Assembly: GCA_016200845.1 (NCBI GenBank)
Contig: JACQDW010000011.1
Coordinates: 1 to 64,000, forward strand
Length of the DNA stretch: 64,000 nt
Source: Burkholderiales bacterium
Lineage (GTDB): Bacteria; Pseudomonadota; Gammaproteobacteria; Burkholderiales; Burkholderiaceae_D
Direction: 5' to 3'
In this document: positions 54,994-63,834 of the stretch, piece after piece
How the letters are laid out: the number at the start of each line of letters is the position of its first letter
Numbering within the stretch: position 1 is the stretch's first letter
Notes under the pieces: generated by a model
What the model was told of the DNA's origin: nothing
Database searches by the model: none
Seen by the model: the letters and a program-made list of their open reading frames with translations, nothing else
Position numbers and translations under genes: made by a program

Positions 54994-55446
54994 CTAGACC
55001 GCATCTTTAATGCTAGACGGGAGTATCTGAAAGTCGGATGTCTTAGTTAGCGCCTGAAGAGCGACAAGCAATGCTTCTGGAGGTGGAACCACTTTTCGGG
55101 CAGCAAGATCAAGCCAACCTCCCATTGACGTGACCCTGCAACAAGGTTTTCCGTCCTGACGAAGAATTTCATTCCGAATGAGAAATCGGCTTCCATCTGC
55201 AGCCAATCCGGCCATGGATAAAGTCACCGTGATCTCTTGAAGAAGACCGACCTCGCGAAAATACTCCACCTCGTCCTTCATGATAACGGGGCCAAGCTTG
55301 AGTCTTACGAACTCCTCCATCGGGAAGCCATTCTCCGAAAAGTACAACATGCGGACATCGGCAGACTTGTCGAGAAACGCCGTGTTCTTCATGTGTGAAT
55401 TGAAATCCATGTCAGCCCATCCTGCATATAATTTTTTCGAGTACAT
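54994..55446 (-). CDS. hotdog-fold acyl-CoA thioesterase-like protein (integron cassette)
   Basis: GWADMDFNSHMKNTAFLDKSADVRM; flanked by attC 55493-55582 and degenerate attC-like 54955-54999. Confidence 0.8.
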   Translation of the reverse strand: MYSKKLYAGWADMDFNSHMKNTAFLDKSADVRMLYFSENGFPMEEFVRLKLGPVIMKDEVEYFREVGLLQEITVTLSMAGLAADGSRFLIRNEILRQDGKPCCRVTSMGGWLDLAARKVVPPPEALLVALQALTKTSDFQILPSSIKDAV

Positions 55447-55492
55447 GTGATGTTCCTATTTTGATGAGAGGGTGAGCTTGGTTTTTGATGGT

Positions 55493-55582
55493 GTATAACG
55501 CAACGGAGAGCGGATGGCCGCCCACATATTAGAGAAATACTTAACCGCTTCGCGGCCAGTCCGATCGACCATCTTGTTATGC
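55493..55582 (-). other. integron attC site (90 bp)
   Basis: GTATAACGCAACGG...GTTATGC ends; internal GCGGATGGCCGC / GCGGCCAGTCCG arms. Confidence 0.85.
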
Positions 55583-55583
55583 A

Positions 55584-56639
55584 TCAATTCACCCAGATTG
55601 AAAGATCGGCGAATTCACCAGTAAGGCGTTTTATATTGGCGTGCGCTAAGCCTATTCCGACGCTAGTGAGAGTAAAGTTGTTGAGGCTTGTGTTGGACCA
55701 AGCAGAGAATAGTTTCTCCATGTATGACCGCACCTCAACACATTTCGCTTTTATTTCGGGACTAGTCAATCGATTCTTGCCAAAAGCTTGGCGTAGGCGA
55801 AGCTGATCGTCTGAGCTTATTCGATGCTCTAAAAATAGCTTCTCCAATTCCGTTATGTTTTGCGCTCGCACCTGAATTTTGGTTGGGTCTAGCAAACAGC
55901 GCCCTGTCAATTGTTGGCTAGGATTGAAAAAAAACGTCGCTCCACTGAGTTCGGAGAGATCAACACCCTTGTCAAAAAGTCCTTGAAAACGTGTCCAAAA
56001 AATATCCTCCAAGCTGCTTGAGGTTATTTGCATAGTGCCACATCCTGCGAACTCCAGATGTTGGTAGGCTGCCATACCAGAGGGTAATGTATGAACGAAT
56101 GGGGCAACGAATTTATCCAATTGAACACCCAATTGCTCGAACGAAAACATGCCGGATGAGTTGCAGTATTTAAAAAAGAAGATAACGGCTAGAGCAGACA
56201 GTTGTTCATCAGTGAGTTTTGGGGCAACTGTGAGGCATTCATTCAGAACTATCTGAACCATATCACGGTCAGGATGCTTTGTTCGATCAACCAATAAATC
56301 AACCAATAGATCTCCCAAATTTGCATCTGCCGTTCTTGCATAGTCTCTCTGTACACTAAAGAGTCCATATTGAAAGTCCGGACTTTGAGCTTGAGCTAAA
56401 CCCGCTAAGTTTTCGTCACTAAGTTTTTTAAGGAATTTATCGGTTATCTCCTCAGCCCGCTGGCGGGCTACCTCCTTGGCTTCACCAGCTAACTGAAGAA
56501 AATTAAAGCGAAAAACATCAAGAACGACCTCACGCACCTCTGTGTAGGTCAATCCATTATTTACAATATCCCTGCCGGCCTGATATGCGACTCCACCGGT
56601 TGTCACTTCTTGTTTCTGTTCGTCACCTTTGTTCAGCAT
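55584..56639 (-). CDS. LPO_1073/Vpar_1526-family-like protein (integron cassette)
   Basis: VAYQAGRDIVNNGLTYTEVREVVLDVFRFNFLQLAGEAKEVARQRAEEITDKFL; family recalled, not searched. Confidence 0.65.
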   Translation of the reverse strand: MLNKGDEQKQEVTTGGVAYQAGRDIVNNGLTYTEVREVVLDVFRFNFLQLAGEAKEVARQRAEEITDKFLKKLSDENLAGLAQAQSPDFQYGLFSVQRDYARTADANLGDLLVDLLVDRTKHPDRDMVQIVLNECLTVAPKLTDEQLSALAVIFFFKYCNSSGMFSFEQLGVQLDKFVAPFVHTLPSGMAAYQHLEFAGCGTMQITSSSLEDIFWTRFQGLFDKGVDLSELSGATFFFNPSQQLTGRCLLDPTKIQVRAQNITELEKLFLEHRISSDDQLRLRQAFGKNRLTSPEIKAKCVEVRSYMEKLFSAWSNTSLNNFTLTSVGIGLAHANIKRLTGEFADLSIWVN

Positions 56640-56641
56640 GC

Positions 56642-56893
56642 CTATTTCCCCTGATCTTTTGTATTAATGTTCCCAAGAGATATATTCCCTCCAGCTTGAA
56701 CCCCAATTGATCCTTTGGTGACCGATTGGTGCAACGCGGCGCTATTTTGTCGTTTGCGATCAACAATGAACGCAGCAATGCAAGCTGACAGCGAGGTAAT
56801 CGATGCAACTGCTGGTTCGTAGTCTGGCGAGTGAACCATCCAAGCAATTGAACCGAGCAAAGCGGAGATGGTGAGAATTTTTATCGCAATCAT
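56642..56893 (-). CDS. small membrane protein with VQAGGNISLGNI C-terminal motif (same cassette)
   Basis: two N-terminal hydrophobic segments; 2-nt gap to the downstream gene. Confidence 0.65.
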   Translation of the reverse strand: MIAIKILTISALLGSIAWMVHSPDYEPAVASITSLSACIAAFIVDRKRQNSAALHQSVTKGSIGVQAGGNISLGNINTKDQGK

Positions 56894-56916
56894 ATGGTGC
56901 TTCCTAATGCATAATC

Positions 56917-57720
56917 GGGATAGGAAGAAGTCTCACAACCCCTCCCTCCCACACCACCGTGCGTACGGGTCACGTACACGGCGGTTCAATGAATATTCCT
57001 ACCGTCCCACTAAAGTCGGTAGCCCTAAACTACTAAAGTATCGTACTGGCAATGCAATTGCAAGCGCGGGGGTCATTGAGATTCGCCATGGTCCATGCGC
57101 TGATTTACTGGTGTTCCATGCTTCTCGCACGGAGGCTCCGCGTTTACGCAATTCCCGATAGCCAGATCGCCCCCATTGCTTCCAGATATAACAGCGTAAC
57201 TTGCGCCGTATCCATTTATCGATGTCACGTAACTGACTCATCACTTCGGCAATGCCAAAGTAAGCTTTCCAGCCCAGCAGATACATTCTTAGTTCTGCGA
57301 TGATCGTTGCTAGACTGCGACCTCTGGTACGGCGGGTTAACTCTCGGACGCGGTGTTTTAGCTTATCGATGGCTTTATCTGCCACTTTCAATCTGGCGTC
57401 TTTGGGATTAACCGTAAAGCCCAGAAATTTGCGTTTGTGTGGGCGATCTACTGCGCTTTTAAGGACGCTGACCGTGAGTCCTAGTCGGTTTCCTATCCAG
57501 CGGGTTACGCTTGCCATGATCCGTTTTCCGGCTCGTTCGCTTTTGACCATAATGTTGCAGTCATCGGCGTAACGCGCAAAACAGTGACCACGCTTATTGA
57601 GTTCCCAGTCGAGTTCATCGAGTACGATATTAGCCAGTAGTGGCGACAATGGTCCGCCTTGCGGCACGCCCATGGTCGTTGGCTGGCGTTTATCGTCCAC
57701 TTGCACACCTGCTTTGAGGT
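56917..57720 (-). mobile_element. 5'-truncated group II intron with RT/maturase C-terminal half and 3' end (domain V/VI-like)
   Basis: QGGPLSPLLANIVLDELDWEL...FARYADDCNIMV; downstream GAACCGCCGTGTACGTGACCCGTACGCACGGTGGT hairpin. Confidence 0.85.
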
Positions 57721-57841
57721 AGCCATTCTCCGAAAAGTACAACATGCGGACGTCGGCAGACTTGTCGAGAAACGCCGTGTTCTTCATGTGTGAATTGAAA
57801 TCCATGTCAGCCCATCCTGCATATAATTTTTTCGAATACAT
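56999..57841 (-). pseudogene. chimeric ORF: 5' thioesterase fragment fused in frame to group II intron RT
   Basis: first 40 aa identical to the 54994-55446 product, then YLKAGVQVDDKRQPTTMGVPQGGPLSP... Confidence 0.85.
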
Positions 57842-57884
57842 GTGATGCTCCTATTTTGATGAGAGGGTGAGCTAGTTTTTTAAT

Positions 57885-57974
57885 GGCGAACACAAAAGTG
57901 ATGTGCACCGCGCGTTGCAGCTTGCACGAAAGGTCAGTAATACAATAGCGTCACTATCGACTGTCATGTTAGAG
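57885..57974 (-). other. diverged attC-like site (90 bp)
   Basis: GGCGAAC...GTTAGAG ends, short paired arms; same length as neighbouring attC sites. Confidence 0.5.
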
Positions 57975-59811: not shown

Positions 59812-60264
59812 AGCAGGGCGGCAGCGAGACCAGACGACACGAAGATGCTCCCCAAAGGCGCGAAAGGCGGTTGTTCTGCGGCCGACAAAGAAACGCCCCT
59901 CTGCATAGGCATTGTTTCCGGAAGATTTGGCCAAGCCCTCACGTATACGTGTTTCTAGCGCTCGATACGCCTCAAGGTCTTCAGGCAACACGCGTTCGGG
60001 ATACAGCAGGCTTTCTGGAAGTTTTCCCTCTCGATAGGCGGAGTTCCAGCGTGACCAAAGTTGCTGTTGTTCGAGGGCTAGCCGAAGAAGCTCTGCGCTG
60101 ACAGGACTTAGTTTGAACCGACGCACCGTTCGGTCGCGAACTGTCAACTCGTTTGATACTTCAAAGCGATACGGGTGACCGCGAAAGTCGGCAAAGCCGG
60201 ATTCCGGGCCGTCGTAGTAGCCCTCAACGGCATACACGATCTCAGCTTTGGGGCGCTGGCTCAT
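59806..60264 (-). CDS. hypothetical cassette protein
   Basis: 152-aa ORF whose stop overlaps the attC core. Confidence 0.65.
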   Translation of the reverse strand: MSQRPKAEIVYAVEGYYDGPESGFADFRGHPYRFEVSNELTVRDRTVRRFKLSPVSAELLRLALEQQQLWSRWNSAYREGKLPESLLYPERVLPEDLEAYRALETRIREGLAKSSGNNAYAEGRFFVGRRTTAFRAFGEHLRVVWSRCRPAA

Positions 60265-60271
60265 TTCTGCT

Positions 60272-60361
60272 GCCTAACGCAACGGTGAGCGGATGGCCGC
60301 ACACGTAATTAATAAATGCCGAGCCGCACTGCGGCAAGTCCGATCGACCATCCTGTTAAAA
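60272..60361 (-). other. integron attC site (90 bp)
   Basis: GCCTAACGCAACGGTGAGCGGATGGCCGC...CCTGTTAAAA. Confidence 0.88.
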
Positions 60362-60365
60362 ATCT

Positions 60366-60638
60366 TCATGCTCGAACACCTTCTTCAAAGTGAAAATGTG
60401 ATTGAGAAGCACAGGTAAACCCCGCAATGAAACTAGGTGTCAATTGTGCTGATGATTTAGGGGTAAAGTAACCATTGTTTGACGCCCAATCTAGCACACC
60501 AATATCTACCGGATATTCTGTTAGAACACTGGATAGTTTGTTTGTGGAAACCCAATCTTCCGCAGCCTCAAGCGAGGAAAATACCCCTCCAGGAAATCTA
60601 GAACCTGCACCATTGAATATCCAAACAGTCTGATTCAT
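60366..60638 (-). CDS. hypothetical cassette protein, duplicate A (MNQTVWIFNGAGSRFPGGVF...)
   Basis: 91-codon ORF between attC sites; two-residue differences from duplicate B. Confidence 0.75.
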   Translation of the reverse strand: MNQTVWIFNGAGSRFPGGVFSSLEAAEDWVSTNKLSSVLTEYPVDIGVLDWASNNGYFTPKSSAQLTPSFIAGFTCASQSHFHFEEGVRA

Positions 60639-61126: not shown

Positions 61127-61175
61127 TTATGACTCCGTATTGTTCATGTAGTGTATCGCTGGACCGTCGTGGGCT

Positions 61176-61265
61176 GGCTAACGCAACGGTGAGCGGATGG
61201 CCGCACACGTAATTAATAAATGCCGAGCCGCACTGCGGCCAGTCCGATCAACCATCCTGTTAAAA
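61176..61265 (-). other. integron attC site (90 bp)
   Basis: near-identical to 60272-60361. Confidence 0.88.
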
Positions 61266-61269
61266 ATCT

Positions 61270-61542
61270 TCATGCTCGAACACCTTCTTCAAAGTGAAAA
61301 CGTGATTGAGAAGCACAGGTAAACCCCGCAATGAAACTAGGTGTCAATTGTGCTGATGATTTAGGGGTAAAGTAACCATTGTTTGACGCCCAATCTAGCA
61401 CACCAATATCTACCGGATATTCTGTTAGAACACCGGATAGTTTGTTTGTGGAAACCCAATCTTCCGCAGCCTCAAGCGAGGAAAATACCCCTCCGGGAAA
61501 TCTAGAACCTGCACCATTGAATATCCAAACAGTCTGATTCAT
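61270..61542 (-). CDS. hypothetical cassette protein, duplicate B
   Basis: near-identical to 60366-60638 product. Confidence 0.75.
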   Translation of the reverse strand: MNQTVWIFNGAGSRFPGGVFSSLEAAEDWVSTNKLSGVLTEYPVDIGVLDWASNNGYFTPKSSAQLTPSFIAGFTCASQSRFHFEEGVRA

Positions 61543-63375: not shown

Positions 63376-63834
63376 ATGGACAAAAACATCACTCCTGAAA
63401 AGCCACGTTTGCTTACCCAAGTTCGTGAGCGATTGCGTTATAAGCATTACAGTCTATCCACTGAGAAGCTGTATGTGTATTGGATACGTTTTTTTATTCG
63501 CTGGTCGGGGTTGCGGCATCCGGTTGAGATGGGGGTGATCGAAGTTGAAGCGTTTTTGACTATGCTGGCGACCGAAAGGCGCGTTTCAGCTTCAACGCAT
63601 AAACAAGCGCTGTCGTCGATTCTGTTTTTGTATAAAGAAGTCATTTGTGTCGACCTGCCTTGGATGCAGCAGATTGGGCGACCCAAAACGCAGGCTCGGT
63701 TGCCCGTGGTTTTGACGGCCTTGGAAATACAGGCAATTTTTTCCTTTCTTGATGCTCGCCACCCCGAATTTTCCCTGTTCGCCAAACTTCTTTATGGGAC
63801 ATGCGAATTCTCGAAGCGGCGCGTTTGCGTGTGA
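63376..63834 (+). pseudogene. intI: integron integrase IntI, frameshifted and lacking the C-terminal catalytic half
   Basis: RLLTQVRERLRYKHYSLSTEKLYVYWIRFFIRW...; after LLYGT the frame shifts (alternate frame MRILEAARLRVK), then stops. Confidence 0.88.

Follow-up and report, generated by a model that had tools for sequence, protein, structure and literature searches.

The two-gene cassette that we analyzed in a window of 64,000 nucleotides (contig JACQDW010000011.1, Burkholderiales bacterium) probably encodes a two-protein membrane-linked module, in which a small membrane protein and a larger partner would pair through matching tags, with a presumed role in protection against competing phages. 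The organization of the pair suggests a so far undescribed membrane-linked module, and what had been the orphan family name LPO_1073/Vpar_1526 becomes a two-gene unit with a hypothesis on how its parts find each other.

Organization of the integron cassette

The cassette and the elements that delimit it are as follows.

55584..56639, minus strand: LPO_1073/Vpar_1526 family protein, 351 aa (NF045477, E=5.9e-89; phrog_19542, E=2.5e-20)
56642..56893, minus strand: small membrane protein, 83 aa, two hydrophobic segments (hydropathy; phrog_27656)
about 55492..55583, minus strand: attC closing the cassette, read from the sequence (GTATAAC...GTTATGC), one of a four-repeat family
56914..56986, minus strand: 3' end of a group II intron (domains V-VI), 5'-truncated, marking the upstream limit of the cassette (Rfam RF00029, 42.9 bits, E=6.7e-6)
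56999-57841, minus strand: group II intron RT, C-terminal part (profile match)
63376..63834, plus strand: integron integrase remnant, N-terminal half only, heading the cassette array (NF011946, E=3.1e-50; TIGR02249, E=4.9e-42; both partial)

Both ORFs run on the minus strand with 2 nt (56640-56641) between them, and each is preceded by a plausible ribosome-binding site. An earlier note on this DNA had given these coordinates, a shared strand and this spacing, and had placed a single attC at the end of the unit and two transmembrane segments in the small protein; we recovered all of these, the attC at about 55492-55583 and the membrane segments as two hydrophobic segments by hydropathy. Repeats of the same attC family were found at 60250, 60623 and 61154. 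With its ORFs, its attC and an array headed by an integrase remnant, the window pair has the composition of an integron cassette. The preceding attC was probably interrupted by the group II intron whose 3' end sits at 56914.

Pairing of the two genes across loci

We searched Pseudomonadota genomes, E. coli, plasmid and phage records, and viral contigs, and obtained 15 distinct intact two-gene loci (the window; L002; the E. coli P2-like prophages; G182, G443, G629; L050; G791, G824, G801, G911, G1016; G1115, G1097 and L039), from several proteobacterial lineages and viral contigs. The small gene was immediately upstream of the large one in 15/15, a few nt apart or overlapping with it. Copies without a partner numbered three (G857, G994, G935), all of them degraded or truncated, and in two further cases (G1000 and G998) a membrane segment was fused to the large protein in a single ORF. 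The LPO_1073 family is rare, with 2 carriers among 369 genomes of the class, 3 among 399 of the phylum, and 6/198 and 6/146 in two orders. In the reciprocal direction, a profile of the small proteins gave five strong matches in 198 genomes, each of the five beside a large gene. Matches among the plasmid and phage records came nearly all from E. coli P2-like prophages; the E. coli copy measures 246 bp + 858 bp, and an example is the pair WP_000687980 and WP_000490525 at 1683554-1684666 of NZ_CP028732.1. The presence of the pair in every intact locus found contradicts a rare co-occurrence of the two genes, which the earlier note had named as an outcome that would speak against its proposal.

Variation of the membrane part

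The small protein of the window matched phrog_27656 over its whole length (E=1.8e-11) and is 55% identical to that of L002. Across the loci, the small partners come in one-segment and two-segment forms, as called from hydropathy only. In two-segment proteins the segments are separated by a conserved loop, which reads DYEP in the window and L002, FEP in L024 and GFDS in L005 and L050. Mapped onto a tree built from the core of the large protein, membrane type switches at least three times and does not cluster; even the sister loci L039 and L050 differ in it. On this evidence, the membrane part is best described as modular.

SLATT and other two-TM effectors resemble the small protein by their two hydrophobic segments, short loop and effector-like size. 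Membership in SLATT was rejected, as SLATT_3 matched the L002 small protein at just 13.1 bits (cut-off 45; E=0.07). Separately, a protein of G889 (L056:1471-1929) carries a similar two-segment membrane head, WFYAERSYEPAIVFIISLGAAI, followed by a different C-terminal region without the motif described below; the match is weak (E=0.0016) and suggests that the membrane module is also in use elsewhere.

Cognate tags in the two partners

The partners share a motif that is C-terminal in the small protein (HQSVTKGSIGVQAGGNISLGNI in the window) and N-terminal in the large one (EQKQEVTTGGVAYQAGRDIVNNG). The tag is about 20 residues long, with the in-register consensus Q-K-Q-K-V-G-D/N-N-S-T-N-I-Q-A-G-G-N-V and the core IQ[AV]GGN[VLM]. 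It lies directly after the membrane part, about 10-20 residues from the C-terminus, in the small proteins, and about 15-32 residues from the N-terminus in the large ones. The alignment of QSVTKGSIGVQAGGNI to QEVTTGGVAYQAGRDI in the window pair gave p=0.006 against shuffles, and the same test gave p values of 0.001-0.02 in the 14 other pairs; the motif common to both partners, already pointed out in the earlier note, is real. It was confirmed by an independent route, since the profile of the small proteins also caught the large protein's own N-terminal motif in 3 genomes (E=7e-7 to 2e-4).

Cognate motifs were more similar to each other than motifs from different pairs (permutation p=5e-5, 15 pairs), and the signal persisted in 9 strictly non-redundant pairs after removal of close relatives (p=2.5e-4). 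No signal came from the permutation controls, for which we used shuffled tails, the membrane part and other regions of the large protein (p 0.13-0.76). Examples of cognate tags are QVQKGGIGSKNIQ with QIQKGGIGSTNIQ in L039 and TQKAKVSNGGSIIQVAG with NQKAKASENSSITQVSG in L026. These comparisons indicate that the tags have co-evolved with those of their partners. The similarity within pairs could also have arisen if gene conversion had acted between the two stretches that encode the motif, a process that would itself imply a need for the tags to match.

The motif was retained through every replacement of the membrane part. Because membrane types were swapped at least three times and the motif was always kept, it most likely serves to join the small and the large protein. 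In the linkers of the two natural fusions, no motif was detected (p=0.90 and 0.20). The simplest reading of the sequences would be that the tag links the partners in trans and becomes dispensable once they are joined in cis. Taken together, the pairing in intact loci, the two fusions and the co-evolution of motifs within pairs lend good support to the co-functioning two-component membrane-linked system that had been proposed from the window alone.

The large protein

The large protein of the window is a clear member of NF045477 (298.1 bits, cut-off 45, model positions 1-257 of 257) and also of PHROG 19542, so the family name assigned to it in the earlier note was correct. The NF045477 model covers residues 29-350 and begins downstream of the tag, and its description includes neither a partner gene nor a shared tag, both of which the window unit has. 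A Pfam search of the large protein returned no domain, and no recognized catalytic motif was seen in it. We found no paper in the literature on the LPO_1073/Vpar_1526 family; Vpar_1526 is reportedly mentioned in an outer-membrane proteome list.

From a shallow alignment, the structure is predicted to have a mostly helical core behind a disordered head, with a mean pLDDT of 65; a second model was weaker (pLDDT 52). Comparison with solved structures, by sequence and by fold, and with viral predicted structures gave no match, searches that have little power with models of such low confidence. A housekeeping assignment, which would have counted against a specialized system, was rejected on the Pfam result and on these structure searches, none of which returned a clear housekeeping fold. 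The PADLOC candidate PDC-S47 was also rejected as the family of the large protein: the match spans about 40-80 residues around the motif, never the full length, with a best E of 2.2e-4 (L024). Within the large protein, the PDC-S47 profile covers solely the motif and the first helix, a hint that other candidate defence proteins may be headed by this tag too.

Genomic context and a possible defence role

Every copy from E. coli belongs to a P2-like prophage, with replication endonuclease/DinI-like genes on one side of it and the portal gene on the other. According to the main text of PMC9122126, the gpA-gpQ slot of these prophages is a hotspot of antiviral systems, and a three-gene system from it protects against P1. 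Several E. coli copies adjoin Hp1/Hp2/Hp3 (E to 2.7e-248), apparently that same three-gene system, as judged from the matching names. The two-component systems of the hotspot (HAD-hydrolase + TM protein, RT + SLATT, three hypothetical proteins) occupy the same slot in E. coli and, like our pair, combine a membrane protein with a cytosolic one. The pair differs from them in having no sequence relation, and it is absent from the systems named in the main text of PMC9122126.

Elsewhere, on a viral contig (L039/L049), the pair follows a tail tape-measure gene and immediately precedes Thoeris ThsB (1e-57) and ThsA (2e-201). In L050 it lies near phage portal and terminase genes, which suggests the same P2-like slot as in E. 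coli, and in L026 it is inside a prophage, ahead of the terminase genes. In G629 the pair forms a stand-alone cassette of a second integron, whose integrase is complete. As side observations, the E. coli 'plasmid' pZ1323HEC0009-3 (L005, NZ_CP148400.1) has P2-like phage genes around the pair and may be a plasmid-like P2-like prophage, and one fused form (L030:2582-3783) is close to a gene that matches the PADLOC candidate PDC-M04A (E=1e-85).

To evaluate the neighbourhoods as a whole, we compared with PADLOC 128 flanking proteins from 12 genomic loci to 108 proteins from control stretches located half a contig's distance away in the same genomes. No clear excess was observed, the control set itself including a Gabija pair, and the enrichment near defence islands that the earlier note had proposed to survey was not borne out against these controls. 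The defence role put forward in that note thus keeps in its favour the P2-like hotspot beside a validated system, the Thoeris neighbour and the two integrons, and has the PADLOC comparison against it. Its argument from integron location is weak evidence alone, because no recognizable defence genes were found among the other cassettes of the window array. Defence genes are common in such mobile settings, and mobile elements also carry non-defensive genes. Given the negative PADLOC test, anti-phage defence is therefore our best guess, and a plausible one, rather than a finding.

Proposed mechanism and alternative readings

The reading that we favour is a membrane assembly held together by homotypic tags, of which a plain anchor or an amyloid signalosome switch would be refinements. 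The small protein would sit in the inner membrane, and its C-terminal tag would pair with the homologous tag at the N-terminus of its cytosolic partner from the LPO_1073 family to form the assembly, which may protect the carrying element or its host against competing phages. The large protein would then be a sensor or regulator, and the membrane protein an effector acting by permeabilization and abortive infection. 'Sensor' is a guess here, as the large protein has no recognized domain, catalytic motif or structural match. In the NLR settings of animals, fungi and filamentous bacteria, cytosolic and membrane proteins are known to signal to each other through homotypic tags; should the tags of our module assemble on infection, this mode of signalling would extend to short, mobile, non-NLR modules of ordinary proteobacteria.

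A constitutive anchor is a real possibility, if not one we would favour: the small protein would merely tether the large one, which would be the active part (a nuclease- or nucleotide-free effector, or an exclusion or superinfection factor). That the membrane part can be exchanged between one and two segments and fused in cis (G1000, G998), and that the fusions have no detectable motif, agrees with such a tether. However, the conserved loop of the two-segment form (DYEP, FEP, GFDS) exceeds what a bare anchor needs, and the large protein shows no evident catalytic motif.

We consider it rather unlikely that the tags form an amyloid-type signalosome, in which the large protein, on sensing infection, would use RHIM/BASS-like tags to template a cross-beta fold in the membrane protein's tail, and the membrane protein would then kill the cell. 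Signalling of this kind is found in the NLR/Bell pairs of filamentous bacteria and in NWD2/HET-S of fungi. BASS pairs, an NLR with a Bell-domain effector, resemble our module in several respects: a small membrane protein with a C-terminal motif, an adjacent or overlapping gene with a matching N-terminal motif, and cognate specificity, which homotypic templating predicts. The pair has this BASS layout, with a C-terminal motif in the membrane protein and an N-terminal one in the adjacent partner. In addition, IQ[AV]GGN[VLM] is similar to GVQVGDGNVQI, an amyloid-forming BASS3 peptide (PMC8086366), to which the small tails aligned with a mean score at p=0.003-0.012. However, a non-aggregating peptide from the same study (PMC8086366) did equally well relative to the shuffled-tail control, and for the heads of the large proteins the BASS3 comparison gave just p=0.06-0.16. 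Judged by the published peptides alone, the likeness of the motif to BASS families is a weak and non-discriminating one to a single BASS3 peptide. The hosts also differ, filamentous bacteria for BASS and proteobacteria for the module, and, unlike the BASS partner, the large protein is not an NLR: no P-loop was found in the 15 large proteins and no match to NB-ARC, NACHT or TPR. That no motif is detected in the permanently joined fusions fits simple docking better than a switch, and we lean towards docking on this point. The more specific form of this idea, a proteobacterial non-NLR RHIM/BASS-like signalosome, is more doubtful again; there, an LPO_1073 sensor would recruit or convert a one- or two-segment effector via cognate tags, and the unit would have spread by integrons and P2-like prophages.

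Finally, a toxin-antitoxin cassette stabilizing the integron or prophage, with a holin-like small toxin and a large antitoxin bound via the tag, is improbable: one operon does combine a small hydrophobic protein with a larger partner on integrons and prophages, and toxin-antitoxin pairs are common in cassette arrays, but a fusion of both parts in one chain is unusual for them, the large protein far exceeds the usual antitoxin in size, and the motif persists through repeated changes in the type of membrane part.

Remnants and repeats in the window array

The group II intron near 56914 has lost its 5' part. The ORF at 56999-57841 (minus strand) is chimeric, with a thioesterase start of about 40 residues in frame with the C-terminal half of the intron RT; a 169-nt thioesterase copy at 57718-57886 is 96% identical to 55323-55491 in the neighbouring thioesterase gene. 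The integrase remnant at 63376-63834 has an early stop after its N-terminal half; unless an integrase is supplied in trans, the cassettes of the array may be fixed in place. Further along, 60269-60568 and 61173-61472 share 98% identity, attC included, a repeat that we read as a recent cassette duplication.
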